A stretch of 64,000 nucleotides of DNA, taken from Pseudomonadota bacterium. GTDB lineage: Bacteria > Pseudomonadota > Gammaproteobacteria > Burkholderiales > Burkholderiaceae_C. Of this stretch, positions 10,097 to 55,347 are shown piece by piece (within the stretch, counting starts at the first letter, position 1; each line of letters starts with the position of its first letter). A program made the translations under genes and the position numbers. The stretch is taken from the NCBI GenBank assembly GCA_020161145.1, contig JAIUPQ010000002.1:62001-126000 (forward strand), given 5' to 3'. Under the pieces are notes generated by a model. It ran no database searches. It was not told the origin of the DNA and worked only from the letters and a program-made list of their open reading frames with translations.

Positions 10097-10906
10097 ATGC
10101 TGACCAAGACCCTGCCCGCCGACATCCCTGACACCCAAAGCGCACGCGACGAACGCCACCTCGCCATCCAGCGCGTGGGCATCAAAGACGTGCGCTATCC
10201 GCTGACGCTGCAAGTGGCCGGCCAGCCGCAAACCATGGCCGCCACCTGGAGTCTGGACGTGGCGCTGCCGGCCGAGCAGAAGGGTACGCACATGTCGCGC
10301 TTCGTCGCCTGGCTGGACGCGCAGCGCGAACCCATGACGGCGGCCCGCCTGGCGCATCAGCTGGACGCCATGCTGGCACTGCTGCACGCGGACGAAGGCC
10401 GCATCGAAGCGCGTTTCTCGTTCTTTCTGCGCAAGCGCGCACCCGTCTCGGGGGTGCAAAGCCTGCTCGACTACGCCGGCGCCTGGGTGGCCGAGCGTCG
10501 CCATGGCCGCCTGGGCATCTGGGCCGAGGTCGGCGTGCCGGTCAAGAGCCTGTGTCCCTGCTCCAAGGAAATCTCCGACTATGGCGCCCACAACCAGCGC
10601 TCGCTGGTCACGCTGAGGGTCGATTTGTCCGGCAACCTGTTGGACGATAGCCCGCCCGCCTGGGAAGAGTTGGTGCGCTTTGCCGAAGAATCGGCATCCA
10701 GCGAGATCTGGCCCATGCTCAAGCGCGCCGATGAGAAATGGATCACCGAGCGGGCCTACGACAACCCCAAGTTTGTCGAAGACCTGGTGCGCGACGTGGC
10801 GCTGCGGCTCAATGCCGACGCGCGCATCGGCCGCTACGTGGTCGAGGTCGAGAACTTCGAGTCCATCCACAACCATTCGGCTTACGCCAGGATAGAGCGA
10901 GACTGA
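10097..10906 (+). CDS. folE2: GTP cyclohydrolase I, type IB
   Basis: A 269-residue GCYH-IB enzyme converting GTP to 7,8-dihydroneopterin triphosphate for folate and queuosine synthesis. The conserved metal-ligand cysteine region is [19 protein letters not shown] near residue 152, and the C-terminal histidine motif is [15 protein letters not shown] at 10097 is chosen; a TTG fifteen bases upstream is also in frame. This isoform can use metals other than zinc and is often kept or induced under zinc limitation, but no Zur box was identified here. AroQ follows four bases after the stop. Confidence 0.94.
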
Positions 10907-43967: not shown

Positions 43968-44006
43968 GCCGCCGTAGTTCAATGGATAGAACGGGGACCT
44001 CCTAAG
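43968..44006 (+). pseudogene. 5' half of chromosomal tRNA-Arg(CCT), split by the integrated element
   Basis: The sequence GCCGCCGTAGTTCAATGG and onward gives an acceptor 5' strand, D-arm, anticodon 5' stem (GGGAC) and loop CTCCTAA with anticodon CCT at 44001-44003. After CCTCCTAAG the tRNA stops: the following bases (CGATTCCAGAGGG) do not pair with the anticodon stem and there is no T-arm. The matching 3' half is found at 55303-55347. The original tRNA can be rebuilt only by joining these two pieces at the 9-bp core, so the gene is inactive in this state. Confidence 0.9.
43998..44006 (+). repeat. attL core (CCTCCTAAG)
   Basis: Nine-base identity with 55303-55311, located at the anticodon loop of tRNA-Arg(CCT). 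Host tRNA sequence lies to the left and element sequence to the right. Strand exchange most likely takes place within these bases. Confidence 0.88.
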
Positions 44007-44028
44007 CGATTCCAGAGGGCGAAACGCA

Positions 44029-44038
44029 ACACCTAAGT
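44029..44038 (+). repeat. Arm-type repeat at left end (ACACCTAAGT)
   Basis: The ten bases ACACCTAAGT recur in the same orientation at 55255-55264 near the right end. Together with the TGGAACAAATTTG pair they are candidates for integrase or excisionase arm sites. The evidence is repetition and position only. Confidence 0.5.
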
Positions 44039-44103
44039 TGTTGATTTTTAATGGATTGGATGCTCTGCAATCCTCTGAAATCCACCTTGTTCCAACCCAC
44101 TCG

Positions 44104-44116
44104 TGGAACAAATTTG
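44104..44116 (+). repeat. Arm-type repeat at left end (TGGAACAAATTTG)
   Basis: Thirteen bases identical to 55212-55224, in the same orientation, 98 bases inside the left core. Tyrosine integrases of this type bind short repeated arm sites on both sides of the core, so this is a candidate integrase arm site. Confidence 0.55.
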
Positions 44117-44153
44117 ACACTGGAAACAGAGGAAGACGGAGCTCAGAAACGAC

Positions 44154-44181
44154 AACAGGTAGCCACTGGCTACCTGTTTTT
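44154..44181 (+). terminator. Rho-independent terminator between attL and element tRNA
   Basis: An 11-bp perfect stem (AACAGGTAGCC with GGCTACCTGTT) with loop ACT is followed by a run of T on the plus strand. It would stop transcription entering from the interrupted tRNA-Arg promoter before it reaches the element genes. Confidence 0.85.
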
Positions 44182-44199
44182 GCTTGTGCTGTCAAATTG

Positions 44200-44274
44200 T
44201 GGCGTCCCCACCAGGAATCGAACCTGGATCTGATTCTTAGGAGGAACCTGTTCTATCCATTGAACTACAGGGAC
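44200..44274 (-). tRNA. Complete tRNA-Arg(CCT) carried by the element
   Basis: The minus strand folds as a full tRNA: acceptor GTCCCTG/TGGGGAC (with G-T pairs), D-arm GTTCAATGGATAGAAC, anticodon stem GGTTC/GAATC around loop CTCCTAA (anticodon CCT at 44239-44241), T-arm with GGTTCGATTCC, and an encoded CCA. It differs from the split host gene in both acceptor strands, the anticodon stem and the T-stem, so it is not a simple duplicate of that gene. It shares the CCTCCTAAG loop sequence. It probably replaces the function lost by integration. Confidence 0.92.
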
Positions 44275-44286
44275 ACGCAGCCCGCT

Positions 44287-44316
44287 ACTATAGCAGCAGC
44301 ATAGGGTCTTAGACAA
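44287..44316 (-). promoter_or_regulatory. Promoter of the element tRNA-Arg(CCT)
   Basis: On the minus strand a TTGTCT -35 box (44311-44316) and a TATAGT -10 box (44287-44292) are 18 bases apart, 12 bases before the first tRNA base. The spacing and position fit a sigma-70 tRNA promoter. Confidence 0.7.
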
Positions 44317-44331
44317 GAAAACGGATAAGAG

Positions 44332-44787
44332 ATGGTAGATCAGCAACTGATTGATTATTTGAAGGAAAGAACCAAAGGCAAGTTGCTCATGTCGCCTGAA
44401 CAACTGGCTGAAGAAATTGGCATACCTTCAAAACAGCAATCCAAGCTCAGGAAGGAAGGCAGGTTTCCTATACCCTTCAAGAACATAGGCAGGCTGGTCT
44501 ACTACTCTATCTATGACGTGGCTAACTTCCTGCTCAATGGCGAGACTGCACCAGCCAAAGAGCCTCCAGAAGAAGCACCAGCAGCAGCCCCACCTAAGAA
44601 GAAGACGGTCAAGAACACTGCACCAGTGCAGGACTTGTCCCATATCTTCATGCTCAGAGCCTTTGCACAGTCTTTAGAAGACCGTGCTACTGCTATGCTT
44701 TCTTTGGCGGAGAACTTGAAAGACTATGCCAACAAGAAGGAAATGATGGAAAGCTTTGCTGAGAAGTTTCCAGCAAAAGGATATTAA
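44332..44787 (+). CDS. Excisionase-like HTH protein
   Basis: A 151-residue protein. Residues about 20 to 65 (MSPEQLAEEIGIPSKQQSKL then PIPFKNIGRLVYYSIYDVAN) look like an AlpA/excisionase-type winged helix. A proline- and alanine-rich linker follows at about 68 to 92, then a helical C-terminal region. The gene is the first protein gene inside the left end, diverging from the element tRNA, a common position for a recombination directionality factor. It could instead be a replication or transcription regulator. No close family is recognised. Confidence 0.6.
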   Translation: MVDQQLIDYLKERTKGKLLMSPEQLAEEIGIPSKQQSKLRKEGRFPIPFKNIGRLVYYSIYDVANFLLNGETAPAKEPPEEAPAAAPPKKKTVKNTAPVQDLSHIFMLRAFAQSLEDRATAMLSLAENLKDYANKKEMMESFAEKFPAKGY

Positions 44788-44893
44788 GAAGTTGATTTCA
44801 CATGAAATCGGCACAATAAGCACCATTCTATCCGCTGTACAATTTTGACGCATTTTGGTACACTTTGGGCCCCTTGTTGCACCAGAGAAAGTT

Positions 44894-45643
44894 ATGCGGA
44901 GAGATTGCGAAGAGTTTATTGCTAACGAATTCCGCTCTTGTGTTCAAAACACAATCATGCGATTAGCTGCTGAAGACACCTATCGCCCTTTCCATAGTGC
45001 CCTACTGTCAGAGCAAGCCTTGTTCTGGAGTAGATTTGAGCGATCTTTCAGCACTTCTTTCGGGCAACGAGTCATTGAGAAGATATCTCAAGCTGCTGCG
45101 ATAGCTGGTGGAGCCGACGAAGCTATAAATCAAATGGCTACTATAGTCAGCCTTCCAGCTTCCCAGCTAAATGCTATTGAAGATCATGTTTCAGGTTTAC
45201 GCACAGGGACAAGATTAGCCAATTGGCATTCTGATATAGCAGATCTTTCATCCGTCATTCCTCAAGGAGAACAATATCAAATCAGAGTTATATCTGACTT
45301 GTATTGGAGGAAGAACGGCATCAACAACTACATGAGCATCAAAACGGTCAAACCAAACATTGACCAAACAGCCGAAGCTAAACGCGACTTATTGAAGCTC
45401 AAGCTTGCTGACCCCACAGCCAATGTCTATTATGGACTTTACTACAACCCGTATGGCGAGAGCAAGCTTGATTATGCATGGAGCCCACCAAAGAACATCT
45501 TCAATTTCAACACTGATCCATGCATCCTGATCGGCAGAGAATATTGGGATACTTTGGGAGGAGCCGGATTTTACGAAGAAGTTCTTGCAATAGCTGCCAG
45601 AGTTGGAGAAGACACAAGATTGTCTTTACAAAATTTGCGATAA
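44894..45643 (+). CDS. TdeIII-family type II restriction endonuclease
   Basis: A 249-residue enzyme with the order of conserved segments seen in TdeIII-type endonucleases: PFHSALLSEQALFWSRFERS, the catalytic region RVISDLYWRKNG then SIKTVKPNIDQT, YYGLYYNPYGESKLDYAWS and ILIGREYWDTLGGAGFYEE. TdeIII itself cuts GGNCC, so the same or a related site is likely but not shown. In the catalytic region the D...E-x-K pattern appears as D...S-x-K, so the exact metal ligands need care. ATG at 44894 is preferred to an in-frame TTG at 44855. The gene converges on its methyltransferase partner, with a shared terminator between. Confidence 0.88.
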   Translation: MRRDCEEFIANEFRSCVQNTIMRLAAEDTYRPFHSALLSEQALFWSRFERSFSTSFGQRVIEKISQAAAIAGGADEAINQMATIVSLPASQLNAIEDHVSGLRTGTRLANWHSDIADLSSVIPQGEQYQIRVISDLYWRKNGINNYMSIKTVKPNIDQTAEAKRDLLKLKLADPTANVYYGLYYNPYGESKLDYAWSPPKNIFNFNTDPCILIGREYWDTLGGAGFYEEVLAIAARVGEDTRLSLQNLR

Positions 45644-45644
45644 G

Positions 45645-45668
45645 AAATGGCCCCATTGGGGCCATTTT
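45645..45668. terminator. Bidirectional terminator between restriction and methylation genes
   Basis: A perfect 10-bp stem (AAATGGCCCC with GGGGCCATTT, loop ATT) lies between the convergent stop codons, with A-rich and T-rich sides allowing use in both directions. Each arm contains GGCCC or GGGCC, which match GGNCC, the site of TdeIII. Confidence 0.85.
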
Positions 45669-45671
45669 AAT

Positions 45672-47129
45672 TTAAGCGAAGTCAAATAATTCCATATTAT
45701 TCTTATTCAACTTACCAGCCTTTTTCTTTGACTTTTTTTCTACTGCACCAATAGCTGAATGCTTGGCGAGCCAAGTTCTATGATCCGTTTCCTTATATCT
45801 TGAGTAAGAAAACCCTTCATAAACTTTGATTGGTTTTCCATTCATATGATTCAAAATCAATTTACCAATGGCTTCACCCAAACCAGCAGGAACAGCATTG
45901 CCAACCTGTTTGTATTGATCAACCAAAGAGCCACAGATAACCCACTCATCAGGAAATTGTTGAACCCTTTTGTATTCCTGAATGCTTAATGGACGGTTTT
46001 CTACTGGATGTGCCAAGTCAGTTGCTGGCATTGCAGGGTGCGTGACCAATGTTGGAGAAGGCTTGTCCCAAGCTAGCCTTCTTAAAAAACCAGTCTTACC
46101 ACCACCAGCATAAAACGATTTTCCAAGGGCTTCTTTTTGAAGCTCAAGAGGAAGGTTCTTCCAGTATTCACCAGGGCCAAGCAATCTGTAATAGCGAAGC
46201 CTGCCTTCTGGAAAGGTCAAATGCTCGTGCTTAATGCTTTCAAGACCTTCAACAGCACTCCTAAAAGTGTTCCACTGTGGAAGATTGAATTCTAACTTAT
46301 CGCTATGAGTTGGCTCCAAATAGGGAAGCTCTTCACCACCACGATGACAAATCAAAACCACTCGCTCCCTTACTTGAGGTGAACCATAGTTGGCAGAATT
46401 GTAGAGATTGAAAGACACACCATAGCCAGCTTGCTTCAATCGCTGAACAATAAGCAAAAGAGCTCCGCCAGCCTGTTCTTCTTCTGTCAAAGGATTTTTC
46501 TCATCCCTATCAGCATGGGGACGATGAGATAATGGAGCAGATAACAACCCACGCACGTTCTCAAGAACAGCATATTTTGGTTTTAGTTGCTCAATCAACT
46601 CTAGATAACGGATAAGAGCACCGCCACGTTGATCATTGAACCCCCGGCGAGATCCAGCCGTGCTAAATGCTTGGCAAGGTGGGCCGCCAACAATTAAATC
46701 TATATCATCATCGAGGGACAAGCCAGCAGCTTCCCTAATTTGTTCGGCAGAATAATTCCAAACATCGCCAAGAAGAGCAATATCTGGATTATTTGCAGCA
46801 ATAGTTTTCCTACATGCCTTATCAAACTCACAAGCAAGCATCACTTCAATGCCTGCTTTCTTGAGCCCCAAATCAAGACCCATAGCACCAGAAAAAAAAC
46901 TCAAAGCAACAATGTCGGGCTTTGACTTGGAATTTCTTTTCTTATCTGGTGGATTTACATGATTTTGAGGAATAGCTAGGAATTGCTCCAAATTCTGACG
47001 ATCAACAAGCCATTGCTTTCCAAGCTGCTGCCCAGCAATCTTACCTTGCTTCAAAAGTGTGCGAACTCGCTGCTCAGTCAATTGCATCAGTTCCGCAGCT
47101 TCTTTGGTGGAGATGACGTCTGGAATCAT
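45672..47129 (-). CDS. DNA cytosine-5 methyltransferase with N-terminal HTH domain
   Basis: A 485-residue protein. Residues about 5 to 50 form an excisionase-like HTH_17 domain ([20 protein letters not shown] then [19 protein letters not shown]). The methyltransferase part starts near residue 75 with [17 protein letters not shown] (SAM binding), then GGPPCQAFS with the catalytic cysteine, [13 protein letters not shown] and, near the end, [13 protein letters not shown]. It should protect the site cut by the converging TdeIII-like enzyme. The start is ATG 47129 because an upstream in-frame TTG (47162) overlaps the -10 box. The HTH may let the protein repress its own gene, as N-terminal domains do in M.SsoII-like enzymes. 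Confidence 0.9.
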
Positions 47130-47161
47130 GCTGTTTCGCTGTCGAAAATTTTCATAGTCCA

Positions 47162-47190
47162 ATTATAACGCAAGGCAGCAGCACTAGCAA
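47162..47190 (-). promoter_or_regulatory. Promoter of the methyltransferase gene
   Basis: A perfect TATAAT -10 box (47162-47167) and TTGCTA -35 box (47185-47190) are 17 bases apart on the minus strand. The predicted transcript begins about 25 bases before ATG 47129, which decides the start codon. Confidence 0.8.
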
Positions 47191-47201
47191 CACACCAAAA
47201 G

Positions 47202-47237
47202 AAAAGGCTAGTCTTGCGACTAGCCTTTTTTCTTTTT
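47202..47237. terminator. Terminator upstream of the structured RNA locus
   Basis: An 8-bp stem (GGCTAGTC with GACTAGCC, loop TTGC) is followed by TTTTTTCTTTTT on the plus strand and by TTTTCTTTT on the minus strand. It can insulate the methyltransferase promoter from the RNA locus to its right in both directions. Confidence 0.8.
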
Positions 47238-47311
47238 GTTAGATTCGGCACCACCCGGTTTCTAACAGAACACCTTGCAACCTTATCGGCTCAATCCTCG
47301 ATCAGTTGCTA

Positions 47312-47339
47312 TTGACAATTCAAAAGAATCATTTATAGA
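47312..47339 (+). promoter_or_regulatory. Strong promoter reading into the structured RNA
   Basis: A perfect TTGACA -35 box (47312-47317) is followed after 16 bases by TATAGA (47334-47339). The start of transcription would fall near 47345, at the 5' strand of the first long helix of the predicted RNA. Confidence 0.7.
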
Positions 47340-47341
47340 TG

Positions 47342-48140
47342 TTCTACCAACTAAGCAATTCAATCATACGAAATTTATTTGCATTGTCAATAACCGAATT
47401 CTGATGAATTGCTCTTGGTGGAAGATCAAGGGCAATTTTTTCATCGGCTCAATGTCCTCGGAAAGAATTGCAGCGAAGTCTTAATAACTTGCACAGTATG
47501 AATAGAAGTCGGAGACATTAGAAACATCGTAACTTCTAGCTGCAAAAGGCGATACCTAAGAAAGTAGCGGCTCAATTGGATGCTATAGGCCCCTTGGCTT
47601 GGCGATTGAGTAAATAAGAGAGAGTAACAGAGTGGGAATATCAACCTGTAGGTTCCCAAGTTTCTAGCAATAGGAATTTGGATCAGTCCGACGCAGTGCC
47701 CACCCTTCAATTAGGTGAAGGAAAATCGAGCGGAATAGCACAAGCAGCTAATTTGAACTTGTGCCCGGTGCTATGTGGTCAGCAGTGAAGTAATTCACTG
47801 GGGATGGAAAGAAGGCAATAAAGGATGAACGGTCATGCCGTTCTACTCGGAATAAATAGCACTCACCCCTGGCAGGTGAGGGACTGGCAGAGTCTAACGG
47901 TCATGACTCTGATACTGAAAACACAACAAGAATTCTCTTGTCCCTGGGTTTAAGGGGGTTCTTTCCCGGAACCGTGTGATAGCACGGGGGAGGGAAAGAA
48001 GATACTAACTCTCTAAAGAGAGAGAATTAATCATCATCTACGCATAGATGATGATGACCCAGTCCAGCACAGAATAATCTCGTAGAGGTTCTATGAAATA
48101 GAACAAAATTGGCAGAACGGAAAATTTGACAAAACCAATT
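47342..48140 (+). ncRNA. Large structured noncoding RNA candidate, about 800 nt
   Basis: No convincing gene fills 47240-48175. Instead there is a chain of perfect or near-perfect helices. The opening one pairs 47342-47350 with 47415-47423 and 47354-47362 with 47405-47413. Others pair 47432-47442 with 47461-47471; 47503-47509 with 47532-47538; 47703-47709 with 47716-47721; 47738-47744 with 47758-47764; 47783-47789 with 47794-47800 (GUAA loop); 47827-47832 with 47838-47843; 47862-47867 with 47875-47880; 47888-47894 with 47905-47911; 47926-47931 with 47936-47941; 47959-47967 with 47992-48000 enclosing 47972-47987; 48030-48040 with 48045-48055; and 48088-48094 with 48098-48104. Size, promoter and phage-like context resemble the large ornate RNAs such as GOLLD or ROOL, but no class could be assigned by eye. 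The 3' end is uncertain. Confidence 0.72.
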
Positions 48141-48175
48141 CCCTTGTTATTTTCATAAATAAACAAGGAGAAATC

Positions 48176-48649
48176 ATGGCGGAGCAACAAGAGAAAAAGA
48201 AGACATCATGGGGCACAAAAATTTTAGGCTTTATTTTTATAGCTGGAGTATTTCAAGCTATCTCTGGGATCATAGCGGATACAAATAAGAACAACGGAGG
48301 ACCAGCTTCAGCATCACCTTCTGCTGCCGCAGCACCTCAACTCAGCCCAAAGGAAGAAGCCCTAAGAGATTTGAAACTAGATTTTGAATGGGGAACAGGT
48401 GGCTTTGGTTCAGTAATGCTTGTTGACTTCACATTCAACAACAAAGGCAAATATGCAGTAAAAGATATTGAAGTCGTATGCAGATCAAGTGCCAACTCAG
48501 GAACTTTGATTGATAAAAACAAGAAAACTGTATATGAATTAGTGAAGGCAGGAGAAACCAAGAAGATTCAGCGATTCAATATGGGCTTCTTGAACTCTCA
48601 GGCAACCTCTACATCGTGTGTAGTTGATGATTTAAAAATTGACCAGTAA
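48176..48649 (+). CDS. Small membrane-anchored protein of unknown function
   Basis: A 157-residue protein with a charged start (MAEQQEKKKTSWGTK), one membrane helix at residues about 16 to 35 (ILGFIFIAGVFQAISGIIAD), a low-complexity alanine/serine linker and a soluble domain with a beta-sandwich look (FGSVMLVDFTFNNKGKYAVK and EVVCRSSANSG, ending CVVDDLKID). The domain resembles FxLYD-type domains, though this is only a resemblance. Two cysteines may form a disulfide outside the membrane. It has a good ribosome site (AAGGAG) and its own terminator, and follows the structured RNA directly. No known family is recognised. Confidence 0.75.
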   Translation: MAEQQEKKKTSWGTKILGFIFIAGVFQAISGIIADTNKNNGGPASASPSAAAAPQLSPKEEALRDLKLDFEWGTGGFGSVMLVDFTFNNKGKYAVKDIEVVCRSSANSGTLIDKNKKTVYELVKAGETKKIQRFNMGFLNSQATSTSCVVDDLKIDQ

Positions 48650-48693
48650 GTAAAAATCAAAAGAGCACCCTGACAGATAGGGTGCAAAAAAGT

Positions 48694-48716
48694 GGCTCCT
48701 TCGTGGAGCCTTTTTT
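48694..48716 (+). terminator. Rho-independent terminator
   Basis: Stem GGCTCC/GGAGCC with loop TTCGT followed by six T. A second hairpin (GCACCC/GGGTGC, 48664-48685) lies just before it. Together they end the gene at 48176-48649. Confidence 0.85.
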
Positions 48717-48850
48717 ACGACTTCACGTTTGACGTTAGGTGCTCACGTGGTGCTGGATGTACCTTTTTTCTTCACAAGCGTAAAATTCGTTTTATTGATT
48801 GGCGACACTAAGCTTTTCAATAAATACAGCGACATCCCACTTCATACCTG

Positions 48851-48897
48851 CCAGTGAAATGGTTCACTTGGAAAGGAGGGTTTTAACTATGACTTAA
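48851..48897 (+). promoter_or_regulatory. Leader with hairpin and two-codon upstream ORF
   Basis: A hairpin (CCAGTGAA / TTCACTTGG, loop ATGG, 48851-48869) is followed by a very strong ribosome site (AAAGGAGG, 48872-48879) and a minimal reading frame ATG ACT TAA (48889-48897). The next gene starts 16 bases later with its own ribosome site. The hairpin resembles the CAGTGAA/TTCACTG hairpin at 47783-47800 in the structured RNA. Confidence 0.5.
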
Positions 48898-48913
48898 ATT
48901 AAAGGAAATAATC

Positions 48914-49249
48914 ATGAATCAACTTAATCTTATTGCAGTTCCTAACGGTGTTTTTACTCTTGAAGAAGCTCTTGAAGACACCTTGATTAAAAAAGCTATT
49001 CAACAGCTTCAATCTGCTGAAGCCACAGAGACAGACAAGATCAAAGTTTTTCTCACTCTCTATCAAATGATTGACACCTTGGCTCAATTGCACTTGAAAG
49101 GCTTTGATATGAAGCAGGTGAATCAATCTGCTTTGGAAAAGAATATGAAATATGCCATTGATGTGGGCTACGATTCAATCATGAAGACCTTCACCAATCA
49201 CCAAAGGAAGCAGATTCGCCAGTTGGTGATGAAGTCTCCAGCACACTAA
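48914..49249 (+). CDS. Small helical protein of unknown function
   Basis: A 111-residue soluble protein, mostly alpha-helical (FTLEEALEDTLIKKAIQQLQ, then IKVFLTLYQMIDTLAQLHL). It ends with a basic stretch (NHQRKQIRQLVMKSPAH). It has an AAAGGAA ribosome site 13 bases upstream and a terminator after it. No family is recognised. The position between the RNA locus and the XRE repressor suggests an accessory or regulatory role in the element, but nothing in the sequence proves it. Confidence 0.7.
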   Translation: MNQLNLIAVPNGVFTLEEALEDTLIKKAIQQLQSAEATETDKIKVFLTLYQMIDTLAQLHLKGFDMKQVNQSALEKNMKYAIDVGYDSIMKTFTNHQRKQIRQLVMKSPAH

Positions 49250-49269
49250 GCTTCAACAGCAGCAAGAAC

Positions 49270-49294
49270 AAAGGCACCCATGAGGTGCCTTTTT
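49270..49294 (+). terminator. Rho-independent terminator
   Basis: A 9-bp stem (AAAGGCACC with GGTGCCTTT) with a short loop, followed by TTTT. It ends the gene at 48914-49249 before the repressor promoter. Confidence 0.85.
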
Positions 49295-49312
49295 GTTGAT
49301 CTCTGCCCTTGT

Positions 49313-49339
49313 GTCAGTCAAAATCATATGAATTTAACT
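49313..49339 (+). promoter_or_regulatory. Operator copy 1, upstream of the XRE repressor
   Basis: A palindrome centred on CATATG at 49325-49330, with the flanking pattern GTCAGTCAAAATCATATG and AATTTAACT. Closely similar sites occur at 52588-52614 and 53979-54009. Its place just before the XRE gene suggests self-regulation. Confidence 0.65.
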
Positions 49340-49353
49340 ATCAAAGCACCCAC

Positions 49354-49719
49354 ATGGCAAAGTCAGCCAAAGACCTGCAACGATTGAAGGTAATCGGTAA
49401 GAGCTTGCAGAAGCAAAGATTGAAGACTGGCTACTCTCAAGAAGAGGTTGCAGACCGTCTAGGCATCACACCCAAGTCGTATGGAGACTACGAACGGGGG
49501 GATGCTACCCCTGACATTTTGAGATTGATTCGGATTGCTGAAATCTTTGAATGCCAGATTGAAGAGCTTCTAACTGGTATTAGTTCAAAGCCTGATGACC
49601 AGGCAAAGCAGATAGCCATCCTTCTGCAAGGAGTCAAAAGGATAGACAGACTCCACATCATCAAAATAGTAGAGAAGATATGCCTGATTTCAAAAGGCAA
49701 GGCAAAAATAGACTCTTGA
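49354..49719 (+). CDS. XRE-family HTH transcriptional regulator
   Basis: A 121-residue regulator with a Cro/CI-type HTH: LQKQRLKTGYSQEEVADRLG followed by ITPKSYGDYERGDATPDILR at residues about 15 to 60. A helical C-terminal part probably mediates dimer formation. ATG at 49354 is chosen over an upstream TTG that lies before the operator. It is the most likely protein to bind the three CATATG-centred palindromes in the element, which include one in its own promoter. It would control the element in a repressor-like manner. Confidence 0.82.
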   Translation: MAKSAKDLQRLKVIGKSLQKQRLKTGYSQEEVADRLGITPKSYGDYERGDATPDILRLIRIAEIFECQIEELLTGISSKPDDQAKQIAILLQGVKRIDRLHIIKIVEKICLISKGKAKIDS

Positions 49720-49920
49720 TTAGAATCTTCATAAGGGCAGCTTGGTTGCAGTTGTTAAGGCCCAATCACCCAAAAATGCTGTTCAGTTCATCGCTGTAGA
49801 TAGCAACCAGCCATATATTAATTCTAGCAAGTTAAAAACGATCATCAATAGCAAGTGGGGCACGTGAGTGAAAAATGGGCCAACTCGTTTGGGTCCTATC
49901 GGTGGAATCCAGCAGGTTGA

Positions 49921-50118
49921 TCACTCCACACCTAAAGAGCCAGAAGGCAGCTTGTTCTTTCTCATGACTGATTCAAGGATCAATTGAAGCTCTTGAAGCC
50001 TTTGGCCTTCATTTGGAATTGAGAAGGCTTGAACCACATCCCTCAAGTCTGCCACTGACACCAGCAATTCATCCTGAGTGGTCAGCTTGTTCTTATCGTA
50101 GAAAAACTTAACTTCCAT
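49921..50118 (-). CDS. Small protein of unknown function, downstream of RHH-like gene
   Basis: A 65-residue protein starting at ATG 50118 (MEVKFFYDKNKLTTQDELLV). It overlaps the upstream gene by 11 bases, so they form a two-gene unit reading away from the mob genes. The sequence is helical and acidic (ADLRDVVQAFSIPNEGQRLQ) with no recognised domain. The 200 bases to its left (49720-49920) hold nothing identifiable. A partner protein for the gene upstream is possible. Confidence 0.6.
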   Translation of the reverse strand: MEVKFFYDKNKLTTQDELLVSVADLRDVVQAFSIPNEGQRLQELQLILESVMRKNKLPSGSLGVE

Positions 50119-50422
50119 TTGAACCACCACCATTCAACTTGGAAACATACTTTGATTTTTGAATCAGTGCTTCCTTGATCACTTGCTCCAAATCAGTTCC
50201 ATTTTTAATGGCATATGCTTCAAGAGCCTTGCAATTTTCTTCACCAATGAACTTGAAGTAGGCAGCAGCACGAGCCTGTTTTTTCTTCTGCACATACTCA
50301 CTCACAGCATTTCTAACCACCATTCCGAAATTATCAGACTGCCCTGCATTGATCAAAAAATCGTCAATCCATTGAACATCTTCTTGTCGTAAGAAAGCAG
50401 TTTTCTTCACACATCCTTTCAT
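50108..50422 (-). CDS. Small DNA-binding-like (ribbon-helix-helix type) protein
   Basis: A 104-residue protein with a very good ribosome site (AGGAGG) before ATG 50422. The N-terminal part, KTAFLRQEDVQWIDDFLINA then FGMVVRNAVSEYVQKKK, has the strand-helix-helix rhythm of CopG/Arc-type proteins. A second similar segment (EENCKALEAYAIKNGTDLEQ) may form another helix pair. Diverging from mobC across a 257-base gap, it could regulate mobilization or bind the transfer origin. Family assignment is tentative. Confidence 0.62.
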   Translation of the reverse strand: MKGCVKKTAFLRQEDVQWIDDFLINAGQSDNFGMVVRNAVSEYVQKKKQARAAAYFKFIGEENCKALEAYAIKNGTDLEQVIKEALIQKSKYVSKLNGGGSNGS

Positions 50423-50489
50423 AAAGATCCTCCTGTTTTCTCCAATCCTACAAATCTGGATTGATAAAACAAGGCCCATTCCGAAAGTA

Positions 50490-50660
50490 TCAGCTATCGA
50501 GTTACAGCCCTGATCGTGGACATCTAATTTTGCTTTGCTAAAATTAAAAATATAAACAGCAAGACAAATAAACCATACGGGCTAAATCCTACGGATTTCC
50601 CCTTTTATGGGTTTATCTCTTGTTAGGGCGCTGCCCTAAGACCCTAGTAAAAATAAAAAA
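50490..50660. other. Candidate transfer origin (oriT) region
   Basis: The gap upstream of mobC contains two hairpins: AAATCC/GGATTT around TAC (50584-50598) and TTAGGGC/GCCCTAA around GCT (50623-50639). Transfer origins of mobilizable plasmids usually lie next to the mobC-mobA genes and carry inverted repeats beside a nick site. No ColE1-type nick sequence was recognised, so the exact site is unknown. Confidence 0.4.
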
Positions 50661-50679
50661 ACAAGAAGGAGAAGATCCC

Positions 50680-51108
50680 ATGAGCAACATAAAAAACAAT
50701 CTGGCTGTATTGAAAATCAGCCCAGGTAGAAGTGATGATCACCTCTACAAACGCACCTACTCTTTAGACACCAAGCTCTCTCCAGTTGAGCTAGATGCTC
50801 TCAGAACCGCATGGAAAGAATCAGACTTCAATTCAATGGCGGCTTATGTAAGACATCAGATTTATGGTGGAAATGAGAAGAAAATTGACTTCTACTTTGA
50901 AGAGAAGCAGCAGGATCGCATCCTTGCAGCCAAGTATCTTGCAGAGCTAAACAAGCAAGGTAAAAATCTAAATCAGATCGCCAAGCAGTTAAGCTCAAAA
51001 ACTGATTTCACCAAACAAGAAACCAAGTTACTTGTAGATGATCTCAAAAATACATTGCTTGCCATTCAAGAAATCAAAGACAAATTTTCTCCACAGAAGA
51101 AAATTTAA
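50680..51108 (+). CDS. mobC: MobC-like relaxosome accessory protein
   Basis: A 142-residue protein. The segment YLAELNKQGKNLNQIAKQLS near residue 87 is the hallmark of MobC proteins (IGxNLNQIA). The N-terminal half has a strand-helix-helix look (TYSLDTKLSPVELDALRTAW). MobC helps the relaxase open the transfer origin. ATG at 50680 has an AAGGAG ribosome site. It is followed 11 bases later by the relaxase gene. Confidence 0.85.
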   Translation: MSNIKNNLAVLKISPGRSDDHLYKRTYSLDTKLSPVELDALRTAWKESDFNSMAAYVRHQIYGGNEKKIDFYFEEKQQDRILAAKYLAELNKQGKNLNQIAKQLSSKTDFTKQETKLLVDDLKNTLLAIQEIKDKFSPQKKI

Positions 51109-51119
51109 GGTGCGGTTTT

Positions 51120-52502
51120 GTGATCAATGTTGTTCAAGGTCATCGCACGAATTCAGTTCAAGAAGCGATCAATTATCTTAAAGGCGACCACGATCACAAA
51201 GGCGTGGAGAGAAAACCTAAGCCTAGATTTCTCACTGGAAGTGAGACAGATTGTCTTGTGGCTTGTGAATCCATAGACAGAAAACATAAGTATGTTTCTG
51301 GCACTTTGGCATTTGAACCCAATGAACATCCAACCGATCAACAACTGATGGCGGTTGTTAAATCATTCCGTGAAACCTTCATGGCAGGTCTTGAGCACGG
51401 TGTGAATTTCACAGACTTCTGGAACATTCATACCGACAAAGGTCGTGTTGAACTGAACTACATCATTCCATTAACTGAGTTAACTACTGGCAAGCAGTTG
51501 AACCCTTTTCCAGTAGGAAAGGTAAAAGAAGACTTCAAGGATGCCTTTGATGCTGTCACTAATCACAATCTTGGCTATGACCAGGTTGTGAGAAATCCAC
51601 TGAAAGCATCGTCTTCAAAATTTGAAACGAAGGTTCTCCCTCATTCAGATTCAGAATTGGCTAAACAAGTCAGAGCCACAAAATCAGACAAGGATAGCAT
51701 TAGTGTCAATGTTGGCTATCAGATCTTGCAAGGCAACATCACCAACAGACAACAGCTATGTGATTACTTGGAGAATTTTGGAGAAATCACCAGAGTCAAT
51801 GATAATTTCATATCATTGAAAGTTCATGGATCACAGAAGGCTTTTCGTTTGAAAGGTCCTGTCTATGAATATGGTGCAGACTTCAAGAAGCTGAAAAATG
51901 AATTTCTGACTAAAGGTGCTGACTACAGAAAGCAACTCAATGATGCAGACTTCAAAAAAGTCAGCGATACCCTGAATAGATTGACTGCTTCAAGAAGGCA
52001 GTTCAATAAGAAGCTGATCAGTCAGCCAATGGTCGGCAGAAGCAACAAGAACCGCTTATATGGCGAGAAAGCCACTGTCAAGGGAACACCGAAGCAGGTG
52101 GCCCCTACCAATGAGCTTAAACAGCCTCAGAAGGTCAAGGAAGCACCTGGCCAGGTGCAACCTACAGCACAGCAGCAACAGCCTTCCAAACCTGTTGCAG
52201 AGCCTTCTAGCAGCACCAAGCAGCAGCAACCATCTACGAACCAGCCACAGGCCAACGACAGCCCTTCTATGCCGTCTGGTGGCAGCAGTTCAGATGGCTC
52301 TATTGGTGGTCTTCGTTCTCAACTGGCTGATCTCATGAGCCAGATTGCCAATGCAAAGAATCCAGCCAAAGCAGCCGCATTGAAAGCCAGAGCCACACAG
52401 CTAGAAAATCAGATTGGTGCAGCAGTAGCAGCCGAAAGAATCAGGAAGCTCAAAGAAGCTGAACGATTCAATGGTATGAGTGGCAAGAAGTTGAAGCTCT
52501 GA
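51120..52502 (+). CDS. mobA: HEN-type (ColE1 MbeA-like) relaxase
   Basis: A 460-residue relaxase starting with GTG at 51120. The motif in NIHTDKGRVELNYIIP near residue 103 places H, E and N with the spacing of ColE1 MbeA (H, plus 7 E, plus 2 N), the signature of the MOB-HEN group, instead of the usual three histidines. The N-terminal domain (about 1 to 160) would nick the transfer origin. The C-terminal part has a glutamine/proline-rich linker (about 345 to 390) and a final coiled region (LADLMSQIANAKNPAKAAAL). Transfer needs a helper conjugation system, since none is encoded here. Confidence 0.82.
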   Translation: MINVVQGHRTNSVQEAINYLKGDHDHKGVERKPKPRFLTGSETDCLVACESIDRKHKYVSGTLAFEPNEHPTDQQLMAVVKSFRETFMAGLEHGVNFTDFWNIHTDKGRVELNYIIPLTELTTGKQLNPFPVGKVKEDFKDAFDAVTNHNLGYDQVVRNPLKASSSKFETKVLPHSDSELAKQVRATKSDKDSISVNVGYQILQGNITNRQQLCDYLENFGEITRVNDNFISLKVHGSQKAFRLKGPVYEYGADFKKLKNEFLTKGADYRKQLNDADFKKVSDTLNRLTASRRQFNKKLISQPMVGRSNKNRLYGEKATVKGTPKQVAPTNELKQPQKVKEAPGQVQPTAQQQQPSKPVAEPSSSTKQQQPSTNQPQANDSPSMPSGGSSSDGSIGGLRSQLADLMSQIANAKNPAKAAALKARATQLENQIGAAVAAERIRKLKEAERFNGMSGKKLKL

Positions 52503-52587
52503 TCCCTCCTACTTCATTTTCGTGAATGGATCATTCACAAAAATAAAGCAGGCCCATGATAAAAGCACCCGAAGGTGCTTGTGCCAC

Positions 52588-52614
52588 GTCAGTTAAATTC
52601 ATATGAATTTGACT
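52588..52614 (+). promoter_or_regulatory. Operator copy 2
   Basis: A near-perfect palindrome, GTTAAATTCATATGAATTTGAC, with the flank GTCAG as in the other copies, centred on CATATG at 52600-52605. It is followed by TTGACA, a probable -35 box of the gene at 52662. Binding here would block that promoter. Confidence 0.7.
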
Positions 52615-52661
52615 TGACAAAAGAAATTCTCCTGCTAGATGTATAGCAATAGGAGGATTTA

Positions 52662-53357
52662 ATGATCAAGAAGAAAAATAACACCTACAGGCTAATCAAA
52701 AAAAATATCGCCAAGTTATCCCTCATCCATCAGACCACAGGAGTTTCACCCAATCGCTTGGTGTCACTCTTTCTGAAAAACTTATCCTTGGATGATGTTG
52801 CTCTTCACAAGAAAACCAAAGATGGATATTGGAATTGGGCACTTGCTGATAAAACCGCCTACAAATATTTCAAGAGAGAACTTGCCATCTATTTGAAGAA
52901 AAATATTGCTAGTTCCAGCTTCAATACTATGCAGGAGCATTTCAAAGCCAATTATCTCACCAAAGAATATTTTGGTGAGAACTATGCGTCCCTGTCTAAC
53001 AATTACTTTGCACAGGAAGAGCCATTGAAGAATTTTGTGCGAGAAGGATTCATCGCCATTTATCCAATCACTCCAGAGATGTCTCAAAAAGAGATAGCCA
53101 TAAGAAACCAGAAGCTTGGCAAGATTTCTGTGAAGCACTGGATTGGCGACATCATAAATTACGACTACTTCAATCAAGCACCTGGCTTCATGATGAAGAA
53201 TGTTCAGCAGGCTCTTCAATGCATTGACCTTTACATTCTCAACATTCTGAATGAAAAGCAGCTTGATCATGAAATCATGAAGCTATCAACCAATCAGAAG
53301 CTTGAAGCTAAGTTCGATGCAACAGAGGCGCCAAAGATAAAAATTCACAAAATATAA
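52662..53357 (+). CDS. Unknown protein under the palindrome operator
   Basis: A 231-residue, lysine- and asparagine-rich protein with a perfect ribosome site (AGGAGG, five bases before ATG). The N-terminal part (KKNIAKLSLIHQTTGVSPNR and LVSLFLKNLSLDDV) has a helix-turn-helix-like rhythm. The remainder is helical with aromatic clusters (YWNWALADKTAYKYFKREL). There are no membrane segments. No family is recognised. Its promoter carries operator copy 2, so it is probably silent while the XRE repressor is active. It may be a gene of the excised or mobilizing state. Confidence 0.68.
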   Translation: MIKKKNNTYRLIKKNIAKLSLIHQTTGVSPNRLVSLFLKNLSLDDVALHKKTKDGYWNWALADKTAYKYFKRELAIYLKKNIASSSFNTMQEHFKANYLTKEYFGENYASLSNNYFAQEEPLKNFVREGFIAIYPITPEMSQKEIAIRNQKLGKISVKHWIGDIINYDYFNQAPGFMMKNVQQALQCIDLYILNILNEKQLDHEIMKLSTNQKLEAKFDATEAPKIKIHKI

Positions 53358-53371
53358 ATAGGACATAAAAC

Positions 53372-53659
53372 ATGGAGACACAAAAAGAACTAGCAGATGA
53401 TTTTTCAGGTGTTGTGCAAGAACAGATTATTTGCACCACAGTCGCTGACAATTCCACAAGGGCCATATCCTCCACAACTAGGCACTACCGAAAAGGATTA
53501 CTACACCGTGAGGATGGACCTGCTGTTGAGAGATCTGACGGCTCTAATGAGTGGTGGATAGGCGGAAAGTCAATTCTTGAAGATGAACTTCCCCGTGCCA
53601 TCAAGAGACTCTTAAATAAGCAGGCTAAAGCTGGCACCCGCCCCAAGGAGATAATTTGA
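53372..53659 (+). CDS. Phage-type short repeat protein (HREDGPA motif)
   Basis: A 95-residue protein containing GLLHREDGPAVERSDGSNEW then WIGGKSI, a short beta-repeat motif frequent in phage and plasmid proteins of unknown function, seen here once. It begins 15 bases after the stop of the 52662 gene and shares its operon and terminator. Start is ATG at 53372. The role is unknown. Confidence 0.65.
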   Translation: METQKELADDFSGVVQEQIICTTVADNSTRAISSTTRHYRKGLLHREDGPAVERSDGSNEWWIGGKSILEDELPRAIKRLLNKQAKAGTRPKEII

Positions 53660-53670
53660 ACAGTCATAAA

Positions 53671-53699
53671 AAAGCACCCAACAGGGTGCTTTATTTTTT
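53671..53699. terminator. Bidirectional terminator
   Basis: A 9-bp stem (AAAGCACCC with GGGTGCTTT, loop AACA) followed by a T-run. It lies between two convergent genes and includes the stop codon of the minus-strand gene. Confidence 0.82.
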
Positions 53700-53996
53700 C
53701 TGTTGAATTTCCTGTTGGACTTGATCAATCAACTTGTCAAGAAACTGTTTGCTTTCCCTAGAATGAAGAAGCTCACCCCAAAGCTTCTGATGTGCCAAAT
53801 TCAAACGGTTCAAGCTATTGACTTTCACACCAGTAGTGTTCACCAATTCAGCAGCCCATGTGAGATTTTCAACTGTGAGAGGGATCTTCTCATTGCTTTC
53901 ATCACTGAAGACTACAGCAATGACCTCAAGACCTGATTCATTCTCATGCAGTCCAAAGACGAACCGCTTAATTGGCTTGTCAGCAGTTAAATTCAT
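53691..53996 (-). CDS. Small protein of unknown function downstream of integrase
   Basis: A 101-residue protein (MNLTADKPIKRFVFGLHENE) whose start codon lies inside operator copy 3. It begins 15 bases after the integrase stop on the same strand, so it may be in the integrase operon or have a promoter controlled at the operator. It contains a beta-rich N-terminal half (LEVIAVVFSDESNEKIPLTV) and a helical C-terminus. No ribosome site of normal strength is seen. No family is recognised. Confidence 0.6.
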   Translation of the reverse strand: MNLTADKPIKRFVFGLHENESGLEVIAVVFSDESNEKIPLTVENLTWAAELVNTTGVKVNSLNRLNLAHQKLWGELLHSRESKQFLDKLIDQVQQEIQQKK

Positions 53997-54009
53997 ATGA
54001 TTTTTACTG
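53979..54009 (-). promoter_or_regulatory. Operator copy 3
   Basis: The CATATG-centred palindrome at 53994-53999. Read on the minus strand, CAGTAAAAATCATATG and AATTTAACT match copy 1 with one change. It covers the start codon of the 53996 gene and abuts the integrase stop. Confidence 0.62.
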
Positions 54010-54011
54010 TA

Positions 54012-55169
54012 TCAAGCCGCATTAGCCCAAAGCTTTGTTCCAATGTCGCTATGCCTCAAGGTTGCATATCGCTTCAAGGTGGACAGTTCAATGTGCCCTG
54101 AAATCTTGCTGATCTCAATATCTGTCAGACTGGTGTTCACAAAATACCAGCTAACAGCACAATGACGAAGGTCATGAATCTTGAAATTCTCCACCTTGGC
54201 ATTTTTGCAGATGACCTTGAACCGAGCAGCAAGAACAGAACTGTTCTGCCAATAATCACCAAAGACCAATGATTGATTGTCCTTTTTCAGCTTCATCAAC
54301 CTGTCTTTGATGAAGTGAAAGAACTCTGGCCGAAGTGGAACTTTACGATCCTCAGCATTCTTCTTGTCTGCAATCTTGGTGTTTTCTTTCGGCACAAAGA
54401 TGTAAGACAAATGAGGCTGTTCTTCATTCAGATGAATTTCATCCCATTTGAGAAGAAGACTTTCACCAGCACGCATGCAAGAATAGTATTGCCACAAAAT
54501 GAGGCACTTCCATTCTTCCCGCTTTACATACATCTTGTCAGTAGCTTCAAGCAGCCGTTCAAGCTCACCAGCTTCAAGAATGCGATCCCTTGGAATCCAA
54601 GCTTTTGGAGGTGCATTGTCGTCAAAGGGCTTACGGTCAAAACTATAGTCATGGTGCTTTGCATGCCACTGCAAAGAAGTCTTGATCGCATAGTAAAGCT
54701 TACGAATGGTGCTTTCACTATAAGTCTTCTTCACCATTTCACCAGTTTTCACATCCAGCACTTTATGACCAGCATAAAGAGGATGGGCTTTTTTCTTTTT
54801 GGGTTGATCAGGAACTTGTTGCTCCAACTTGGTCTTCAAGTAAAGGGCAAAAGTGCCAGCCTTGAAGTTGGAAAGAGGAACCTTGCCAATCTCAGTCTTG
54901 AGCCTTTCAAGGTCATACCTCTTACCGTCAGCCACAGTGTTGTGCTTGAGATATTCATCAAAAATCTGAGATAAAGTCAGTTTCTTGATTTTGGTGATGT
55001 CCACCGACTCACCACGGTCAATCTTGGTCTTGACCTCACGAATGAACTTCTCAGCATCCTTCTTGGTCTTGAAGGTCTTGCTGGCTTTCACACCAGCCTC
55101 ACGAATGCGAACGAGGTATGAGATGTCACCATTCACACCCACACGTTCAGTGATCAACTTGCCAGCCAT
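54012..55169 (-). CDS. int: Tyrosine recombinase (integrase)
   Basis: A 385-residue integrase. The N-terminal arm-binding region (YLVRIREAGVKASKTFKTKK) is followed by a core-binding domain (LSQIFDEYLKHNTV) and the catalytic domain. The active-site residues are R in SCMRAGESLLLKWDE, K in the beta hairpin before DRKVPLRPEFF, H-x-x-R in KIHDLRHCAVSWYF, H in ISGHIELSTLKRY and the nucleophilic Y in the same segment. ATG 55169 has GGAGAGG before it; an upstream in-frame TTG is less likely. It sits beside the right core, the usual place for the enzyme acting on it. Confidence 0.94.
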   Translation of the reverse strand: MAGKLITERVGVNGDISYLVRIREAGVKASKTFKTKKDAEKFIREVKTKIDRGESVDITKIKKLTLSQIFDEYLKHNTVADGKRYDLERLKTEIGKVPLSNFKAGTFALYLKTKLEQQVPDQPKKKKAHPLYAGHKVLDVKTGEMVKKTYSESTIRKLYYAIKTSLQWHAKHHDYSFDRKPFDDNAPPKAWIPRDRILEAGELERLLEATDKMYVKREEWKCLILWQYYSCMRAGESLLLKWDEIHLNEEQPHLSYIFVPKENTKIADKKNAEDRKVPLRPEFFHFIKDRLMKLKKDNQSLVFGDYWQNSSVLAARFKVICKNAKVENFKIHDLRHCAVSWYFVNTSLTDIEISKISGHIELSTLKRYATLRHSDIGTKLWANAA

Positions 55170-55211
55170 CGCCTCTCCTATGTAGTCTGTTCCAGTCGCC
55201 AAGTTGGAACT

Positions 55212-55224
55212 TGGAACAAATTTG
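55212..55224 (+). repeat. Arm-type repeat at right end (TGGAACAAATTTG)
   Basis: Identical to 44104-44116 in the same orientation, between the integrase start and the right core. Additional partial copies (TTGGAAC, TTTGGAAC) cluster around it at 55203-55229, as expected for integrase arm sites. Confidence 0.55.
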
Positions 55225-55254
55225 GAACATTTCTGCTAGGATAGCGTAGACTTC

Positions 55255-55264
55255 ACACCTAAGT
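55255..55264 (+). repeat. Arm-type repeat at right end (ACACCTAAGT)
   Basis: Identical to 44029-44038 in the same orientation and 39 bases inside the right core. It is a candidate binding site for the integrase or the excisionase-like protein. Confidence 0.5.
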
Positions 55265-55302
55265 GCAAGCTGCACAAAGGATTTTTTAAATTGATATGGT
55301 TC

Positions 55303-55347
55303 CCTCCTAAGTCTCAGATACAGGTTCGATTCCTGTCGGTGGTACCA
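55303..55347 (+). pseudogene. 3' half of chromosomal tRNA-Arg(CCT) and attR core
   Basis: The core CCTCCTAAG (55303-55311) is followed by TCTCAGATACAGGTTCGATT, completing the anticodon stem, T-arm and acceptor 3' strand CGGTGGT with ACCA at 55344-55347. The bases before it (TTGATATGGTTC) are element sequence and do not form a D-arm, so no tRNA can be made from this piece alone. Confidence 0.9.

Follow-up and report, generated by a model that had tools for sequence, protein, structure and literature searches.

What does a cell lose, and what does it gain, when a mobile element integrates into the anticodon loop of a tRNA gene and leaves the gene unrepaired? The question is raised by a 64,000-nucleotide stretch (the window) of contig JAIUPQ010000002.1 of a Pseudomonadota bacterium (GCA_020161145.1), in which an 11.3 kb, low-GC element (positions 44007-55302) is inserted within the anticodon loop of the host tRNA-Arg(CCT) gene. 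GC content is 38-46% in the element versus 67-76% in its flanks (1-kb segments). We consider it highly probable, at roughly 0.88, that this element is an integrative mobilizable element that breaks tRNA-Arg(CCT) and compensates with a complete tRNA of its own.

Both halves of the host gene contain the 9-bp core CCTCCTAAG and, when joined by script, they read as one 75-nt tRNA-Arg(CCT) in ARAGORN (features in table 1). The break in the anticodon loop that a preliminary description of this locus had proposed is thereby confirmed. As that description also held, no tRNA is restored, and ARAGORN finds none at either the left or the right junction. Classical restoration is ruled out, since a tRNA is rebuilt at a junction in none of the 10 tRNA-sited elements described below. 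A complete tRNA-Arg(CCT) instead lies within the element, 193 nt from the left core, and equals the joined host tRNA at 60 of 75 positions. It is identical over 75/75 positions to apparently native tRNAs in two genomes from other families of the order (G461 and G688). The replacement therefore looks captured from a host, and probably comes from another bacterial lineage. The inner tRNA had been described as complete and diverged; completeness stands, and divergence holds relative to the local host but not relative to these two genomes.

The promoter ascribed to the inner tRNA is also present, as a sigma-70-like pair upstream of it. In a 651-base region, two promoter-like sites were found versus 0.5 expected in shuffles. 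A motif resembling the window promoter precedes the tRNA in seven close relatives, and by eye its -35-like TTGTCT is retained in seven of eight close elements, with TTGTTC in the eighth (G337). A terminator-like hairpin separates the broken gene from the replacement and, aligned by eye, is similar in seven of the eight. Across six elements, the window's included, the replacement tRNA is 74-75/75 identical, and the surrounding noncoding DNA is less conserved: relative to the window, 34-39 of 50-53 aligned positions match in the 57 nt upstream and 71-79% in the 150 nt downstream. In G338 and G339, whose integrases are ∼80% identical to the window's, a different tRNA (58/75 alike) is found in this slot, downstream of a similar promoter motif. 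Separately, three Streptococcus suis phage records (KC348601, KX077890, and KX077895) contain, near the record end, a match covering 69 of the 75 nt of this tRNA; two of these records label it as tRNA-Arg and a putative att site.

The arrangement recurs in each related element found inside a tRNA gene. Ten integrase relatives were found in betaproteobacterial genomes, giving 11 elements with that of the window. The named hosts (G335-G340) are Diaphorobacter caeni, a Burkholderiales metagenome-assembled genome, Pseudoduganella danionis, Zoogloea sp. LCSB751, Acidovorax sp. SUPP3334, and Duganella qianjiadongensis; further relatives are in G546, G544, G256, and G029. D. caeni and Zoogloea are classed as Betaproteobacteria in the NCBI taxonomy. 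Searching with the window protein yielded matches in 5 of 299 family genomes (E 1e-20), and searching with an integrase alignment (E 1e-40) yielded matches in 1 of 369 class genomes (its own) and 4 of 399 order genomes; the other sources were six named genomes and one viral contig. The phage collection gave 5 matching records and the plasmid collection 2207, all at <60% identity and at 22-34% among the matches listed. Ten elements, including the window's, are inserted in a tRNA gene, and all 10 share one anatomy: the joined halves read as a tRNA, the junctions hold none, and the element supplies an entire tRNA of the isoacceptor that was broken. That isoacceptor is CCT in nine and TCT in one, and the replacement is found at the end away from the integrase, 144-268 nt inward of the core. 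The ends of the G029 element fall on separate contigs. Compared with the window's integrase, the other nine have 30-91% identity. The TCT case is G256 (integrase 38% identical), whose element interrupts tRNA-Arg(TCT) and brings a tRNA of that isoacceptor from which the attachment core is missing. Orientation varies: the replacement is inverted in the seven close elements of this count and same-strand in G029, G544, and G256.

The count of 10 omits G337, which is treated apart as a secondary-site case, the distant integrase relatives G109 and L097, in whose fetched DNA no tRNA was seen, and also G027 and G374. The integrase of G268 is at the same contig coordinates as that of D. caeni; the two were taken as the same genome and counted once. 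G027 offers just a 3' half where a contig begins. In G374, a sequence like the 5' half of tRNA-Arg(CCT) is located near a contig end (L086, ∼10842-10880) and is followed by ordinary genes, with no replacement seen there; an intact tRNA-Arg(CCT) is elsewhere in that genome (L151).

Relatives lacking the element were expected to have an intact gene, and those checked do. The joined tRNA gene was matched in whole or in part in 50 of 60 genomes searched, its own included. Of 30 loci fetched, 18 (L014-L031) were checked with ARAGORN, and an intact tRNA-Arg(CCT) was read in every one. At two of these empty sites, the intact tRNA adjoins the ABC-transporter-like gene that is downstream in the window (L016, same genus, 72%; L023, other genus, 57%). 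The small gene adjoining the 3' half was seen at 0 of 18 sites in the 1.5 kb examined per side.

Within its own assembly, the replacement is the only CCT gene found. An RF00005 census yielded 41 tRNAs, and all 41 anticodons were read by ARAGORN, some within the locus of a neighbor. Arginine anticodons among them are CCG, TCT, and ACG, plus CCT solely in the element. BLAST found no other full-length relative of the CCT tRNA in the genome, and a group I intron motif, searched as a sign of an intron-bearing second copy, was unmatched there. In seven of the related genomes (G335, G336, G338, G339, G340, G544, and G546), a pattern search for second CCT genes returned the halves, the replacements, tRNA-Arg(TCT), and a few other places of unread identity; one tRNA-Arg(TCT) was read in each. 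The pattern is blind to the replacements of G338, G339, and G256, so similar genes would be overlooked.

These sequences confirm that the host gene is split and not reconstructed, that the replacement is of the same isoacceptor, and that the pattern recurs in the family. With 10 of 10 tRNA-sited elements, a replacement that always matches the broken isoacceptor, and no other CCT gene found in the assembly, the strategy of breaking and replacing a tRNA is supported. We propose that the tyrosine integrase would recombine a short core in the attachment site of the element (attP) with CCTCCTAAG in the anticodon loop. Because attP is without the 3' part of the tRNA, integration would destroy the host gene. 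The element would compensate with its own complete tRNA-Arg(CCT), expressed from a separate promoter just inside the end opposite the integrase, and the hairpin that separates the inverted replacement from the broken gene would act as a terminator, blocking read-through from the orphaned host promoter. If the integrated element is the only source of a CCU-anticodon tRNA in the cell, cells losing that tRNA alone are predicted to be disadvantaged. We infer the expression and charging of the element tRNA, host dependence on it, the resulting stabilization, and the role of the terminator; altered AGG decoding, which the preliminary description had raised, would be a further possibility.

Several observations weigh against this proposal. 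The 41 tRNAs do not include Ile(GAT), Ala(TGC), or Leu(TAA), a sign of gaps in the assembly or the search, so a further CCT gene is possible. The upstream host gene of the window was seen at 0 of 18 empty sites in the 1.5 kb examined per side. Folding was done for the hairpins of the window and G337, and that of G337, which differs but has a T-run, is no better than shuffles (z -0.84). For two distant integrase relatives, G109 (30% identity over residues 154-382) and viral contig L097 (32% over 205-392), the ∼12 kb retrieved of each, which may not span the whole element, shows no tRNA. Lastly, the assembly has a tRNA-Arg(TCT), which in principle may read AGG by wobble, so loss of the CCT tRNA need not be lethal.

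This last point leads to an alternative to which we assign a minority chance: the break is nearly harmless, and the replacement trims a small fitness cost without creating real dependence. AGG is rare in host-like open reading frames (ORFs), consistent with a small cost. But a replacement is present in 10 of 10 elements, and G256 breaks tRNA-Arg(TCT) itself, for which we know of no other arginine anticodon expected to cover AGA.

Codon usage bears on a second alternative, that the tRNA is a passenger that aids translation of the genes of an AT-rich element and that its match to the broken gene is secondary. In the 13 element ORFs (44332-55202), AGG and AGA occur at 9.7 and 13.9 per 1000 codons, versus 2.5 and 0.2 in 23 host-like ORFs picked mechanically for comparison, as would suit such a passenger. 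However, the window element prefers AGA (40 codons) over AGG (28 codons) and yet carries a CCT rather than a TCT tRNA. The gene is beside the end of the element every time, and the isoacceptor appears to follow the target, TCT where TCT is broken (one case, G256), unlike what a passenger tRNA need do. We view this explanation as very unlikely. The proposal that the tRNA counters a host anticodon nuclease, as has been suggested for phage tRNAs facing tRNA-cleaving defense (PMC10865867), or acts as a decoy attachment site, as the intact core CCTCCTAAG in the window's replacement would allow, is hardly credible, because the 15 differences from the host tRNA spare the anticodon loop, so that a nuclease would probably still see the replacement, and because the replacement of G256 is without the core.

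The element of P. danionis (G337) is inserted outside tRNA genes, at CCTCTTAAG, and still carries its own tRNA. The insertion locus is presumably an insertion-sequence transposase gene, judging from its motifs. An intact tRNA-Arg(CCT) is elsewhere in this genome (L072). Integration at a non-tRNA site indicates that a tRNA gene is not required for integration. In phages, secondary sites were observed with a tRNA-defective mutant (PMC10865867); the situation in G337 is a different one.

Breaking a tRNA gene and replacing it has a precedent among phages. In work on tRNA-dependent lysogeny, experiments with actinobacteriophages Fionnbharth, LeBron, and Gaia showed that a phage tRNA of the same isotype is needed for lysogeny and that secondary sites are used without it; the tRNAs are Lys-TTT, Ile2-CAT, and Leu-CAA, and the study (Guerrero-Bustamante and Hatfull 2024, PMC10865867) points to Lj965 of Lactobacillus johnsonii as a probable earlier example. 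The shared features are a tyrosine integrase, a short core (8-17 bp in the phages, 9 bp in the window element), an attB site in a tRNA gene that is not reconstructed, an element tRNA of the same isotype, and the use of secondary sites in other genes, which in the phages concerned a tRNA-defective mutant. Unlike those phages, the window element bears a relaxase and no recognized phage genes, resides in betaproteobacteria, and targets Arg-CCT, with one relative at Arg-TCT. In Sinorhizobium prophages, a host tRNA-Leu(UAG) is said to be inactivated by integration and substituted by a foreign tRNA gene (PMC11476347); this too is a replaced tRNA in a proteobacterium, but involves prophages and another tRNA. 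The window element appears to work like a tRNA-dependent lysogeny system, although its gene content does not support an assignment to lysogeny itself. Classical tRNA-targeted islands were reportedly treated by Williams in 2002. Such islands and integrative mobilizable elements share with the window element an integrase near one end, insertion at the anticodon loop, and MbeA/MobC-type mobilization genes, but they carry the missing part of the tRNA and rebuild the gene, whereas the window element has a 9-bp core and rebuilds nothing (PMC8371274).

Among the matches listed in open-licence literature, we found no report of the strategy in a nonphage mobilizable element or at tRNA-Arg. Within the literature searched, its occurrence in nonphage elements and at tRNA-Arg is new; the strategy itself is already published. 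That a tRNA gene is broken and a foreign substitute supplied here suggests that the strategy is not restricted to phages. If the proposal is correct, an element on which the cell relies for all of one host tRNA would have a toxin-free, built-in maintenance device, and such elements would transfer tRNA genes between bacterial lineages. The presence of CCT and TCT targets within one integrase family makes dependence directly testable.

Some replacements may outlive their elements. Two genomes of the window's genus, G007 (L044:10685-13067) and G011 (L045:5240-10330), have islands between split tRNA-Arg(CCT) halves with an intron-bearing replacement. In both, ∼217 nt interrupt a tRNA-Arg(CCT) whose start is 195 nt beyond that of the broken 5' half, and the joined exons read as tRNA-Arg(CCT). 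Matches to the Rfam group I intron family score 23.8 bits in G007, 18.9 in G011, and 33.8 in G035, all under the gathering score of 50. In G011, the core of the 3' half is altered. No integrase was recognized in the two long ORFs scanned per island, and BLAST found no second intact CCT gene in either genome. The ORFs encode an SDR enzyme and a TetR-like regulator in G007, and an SMC-like ATPase (Ppl-like, PADLOC E 4.8e-142) and a Schlafen/AlbA protein in G011, whose cargo looks like defense. Both look like islands fixed by their tRNA following a presumed loss of the integrase.

A motif survey for group I introns in the anticodon loops of tRNAs, with one mismatch allowed, identified 27 places (L152-L178) in 26 of 399 family genomes: 13 in CAT-anticodon tRNAs, eight in Arg(CCT) as assigned by the 5' exon, two each in Leu(TAA) and Thr(TGT), and two without a tRNA call. 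A broken 5' half is beside the intron-bearing CCT gene in two of the eight, G007 and G114, and G011, outside that hit list, is a third case. In G114 (L166, ∼1136 and ∼1362), a 5' half with altered core CCTCCTAAT is 226 nt upstream of the intron-bearing tRNA-Arg(CCT). The other six of eight have no broken half alongside, one of which (G147) has just 177 nt of upstream DNA. The intron is thus unsupported as a general mark of such elements, and shielding of the core by an intron is only an idea. Taken jointly, these patterns allow a broader reading that we hold tentatively and find somewhat doubtful: breaking and replacing would be a general, recurring way of life for nonviral mobilizable elements, one that gradually rewrites the tRNA repertoires of their hosts, the tRNA would outlive the element, with integrase-less relics keeping it as their CCT gene, and in some an intron inside the core (CCTCCT-intron-AAG) would hide the replacement from the same integrase in DNA and restore a normal anticodon loop in RNA.

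Table 1. Features of the element and its insertion site, in window positions.
Feature	Position	Strand	Remarks
Host tRNA-Arg(CCT), 5' half	43968..44006	+	terminates in core
Core, left copy (9 bp, anticodon loop)	43998..44006	+	CCTCCTAAG
Terminator-like hairpin and T-run	44154..44178	+	-17.1 kcal/mol, z -5.1
Replacement tRNA-Arg(CCT), complete	44200..44274	-	ARAGORN; RF00005 58.7 bits
Sigma-70-like promoter of replacement	44287..44316	-	TTGTCT, 18 nt, TATAGT
Small helix-turn-helix (HTH) protein, excisionase/regulator-like	44332..44787	+	phrog_66, E 1.6e-8; adjoins replacement tRNA
TdeIII-type type II restriction endonuclease	44855..45643	+	cargo
C5-cytosine DNA methyltransferase	45672..47162	-	N-terminal HTH; cargo
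ORF, phage family of unknown function	48176-48649		phrog_14275, E 9.7e-21
Cro/C1-type HTH regulator	49309..49719	+	
NikA/MobC-like mobilization accessory protein	50620..51108	+	weak: E 4.1e-5, under Pfam cut-off
MbeA-like relaxase	51120..52502	+	NCBIfam E 1e-25, under curated cut-off; Pfam Relaxase E 0.011
Tyrosine integrase	54012..55202	-	Phage_integrase, E 2.8e-16; adjoins right end
Core, right copy (9 bp)	55303..55311	+	CCTCCTAAG
Host tRNA-Arg(CCT), 3' half	55303..55347	+	CCA included

For each of the 13 element ORFs, the scan covered one or more of Pfam, PHROGs, and NCBIfam. Among them, no virion gene and no type IV secretion system gene was recognized, and the first of these results leaves the identity of a temperate phage unsupported. 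An integrase and a relaxase are both present, as in integrative mobilizable elements, and by this gene set, in which the relaxase and MobC matches are under curated cut-offs, the window element looks like one. In G546 (L083:8626-10559), a different methyltransferase and restriction endonuclease pair occupies the slot of the window's TdeIII and C5-methyltransferase pair, indicating that the restriction-modification cargo is exchangeable.

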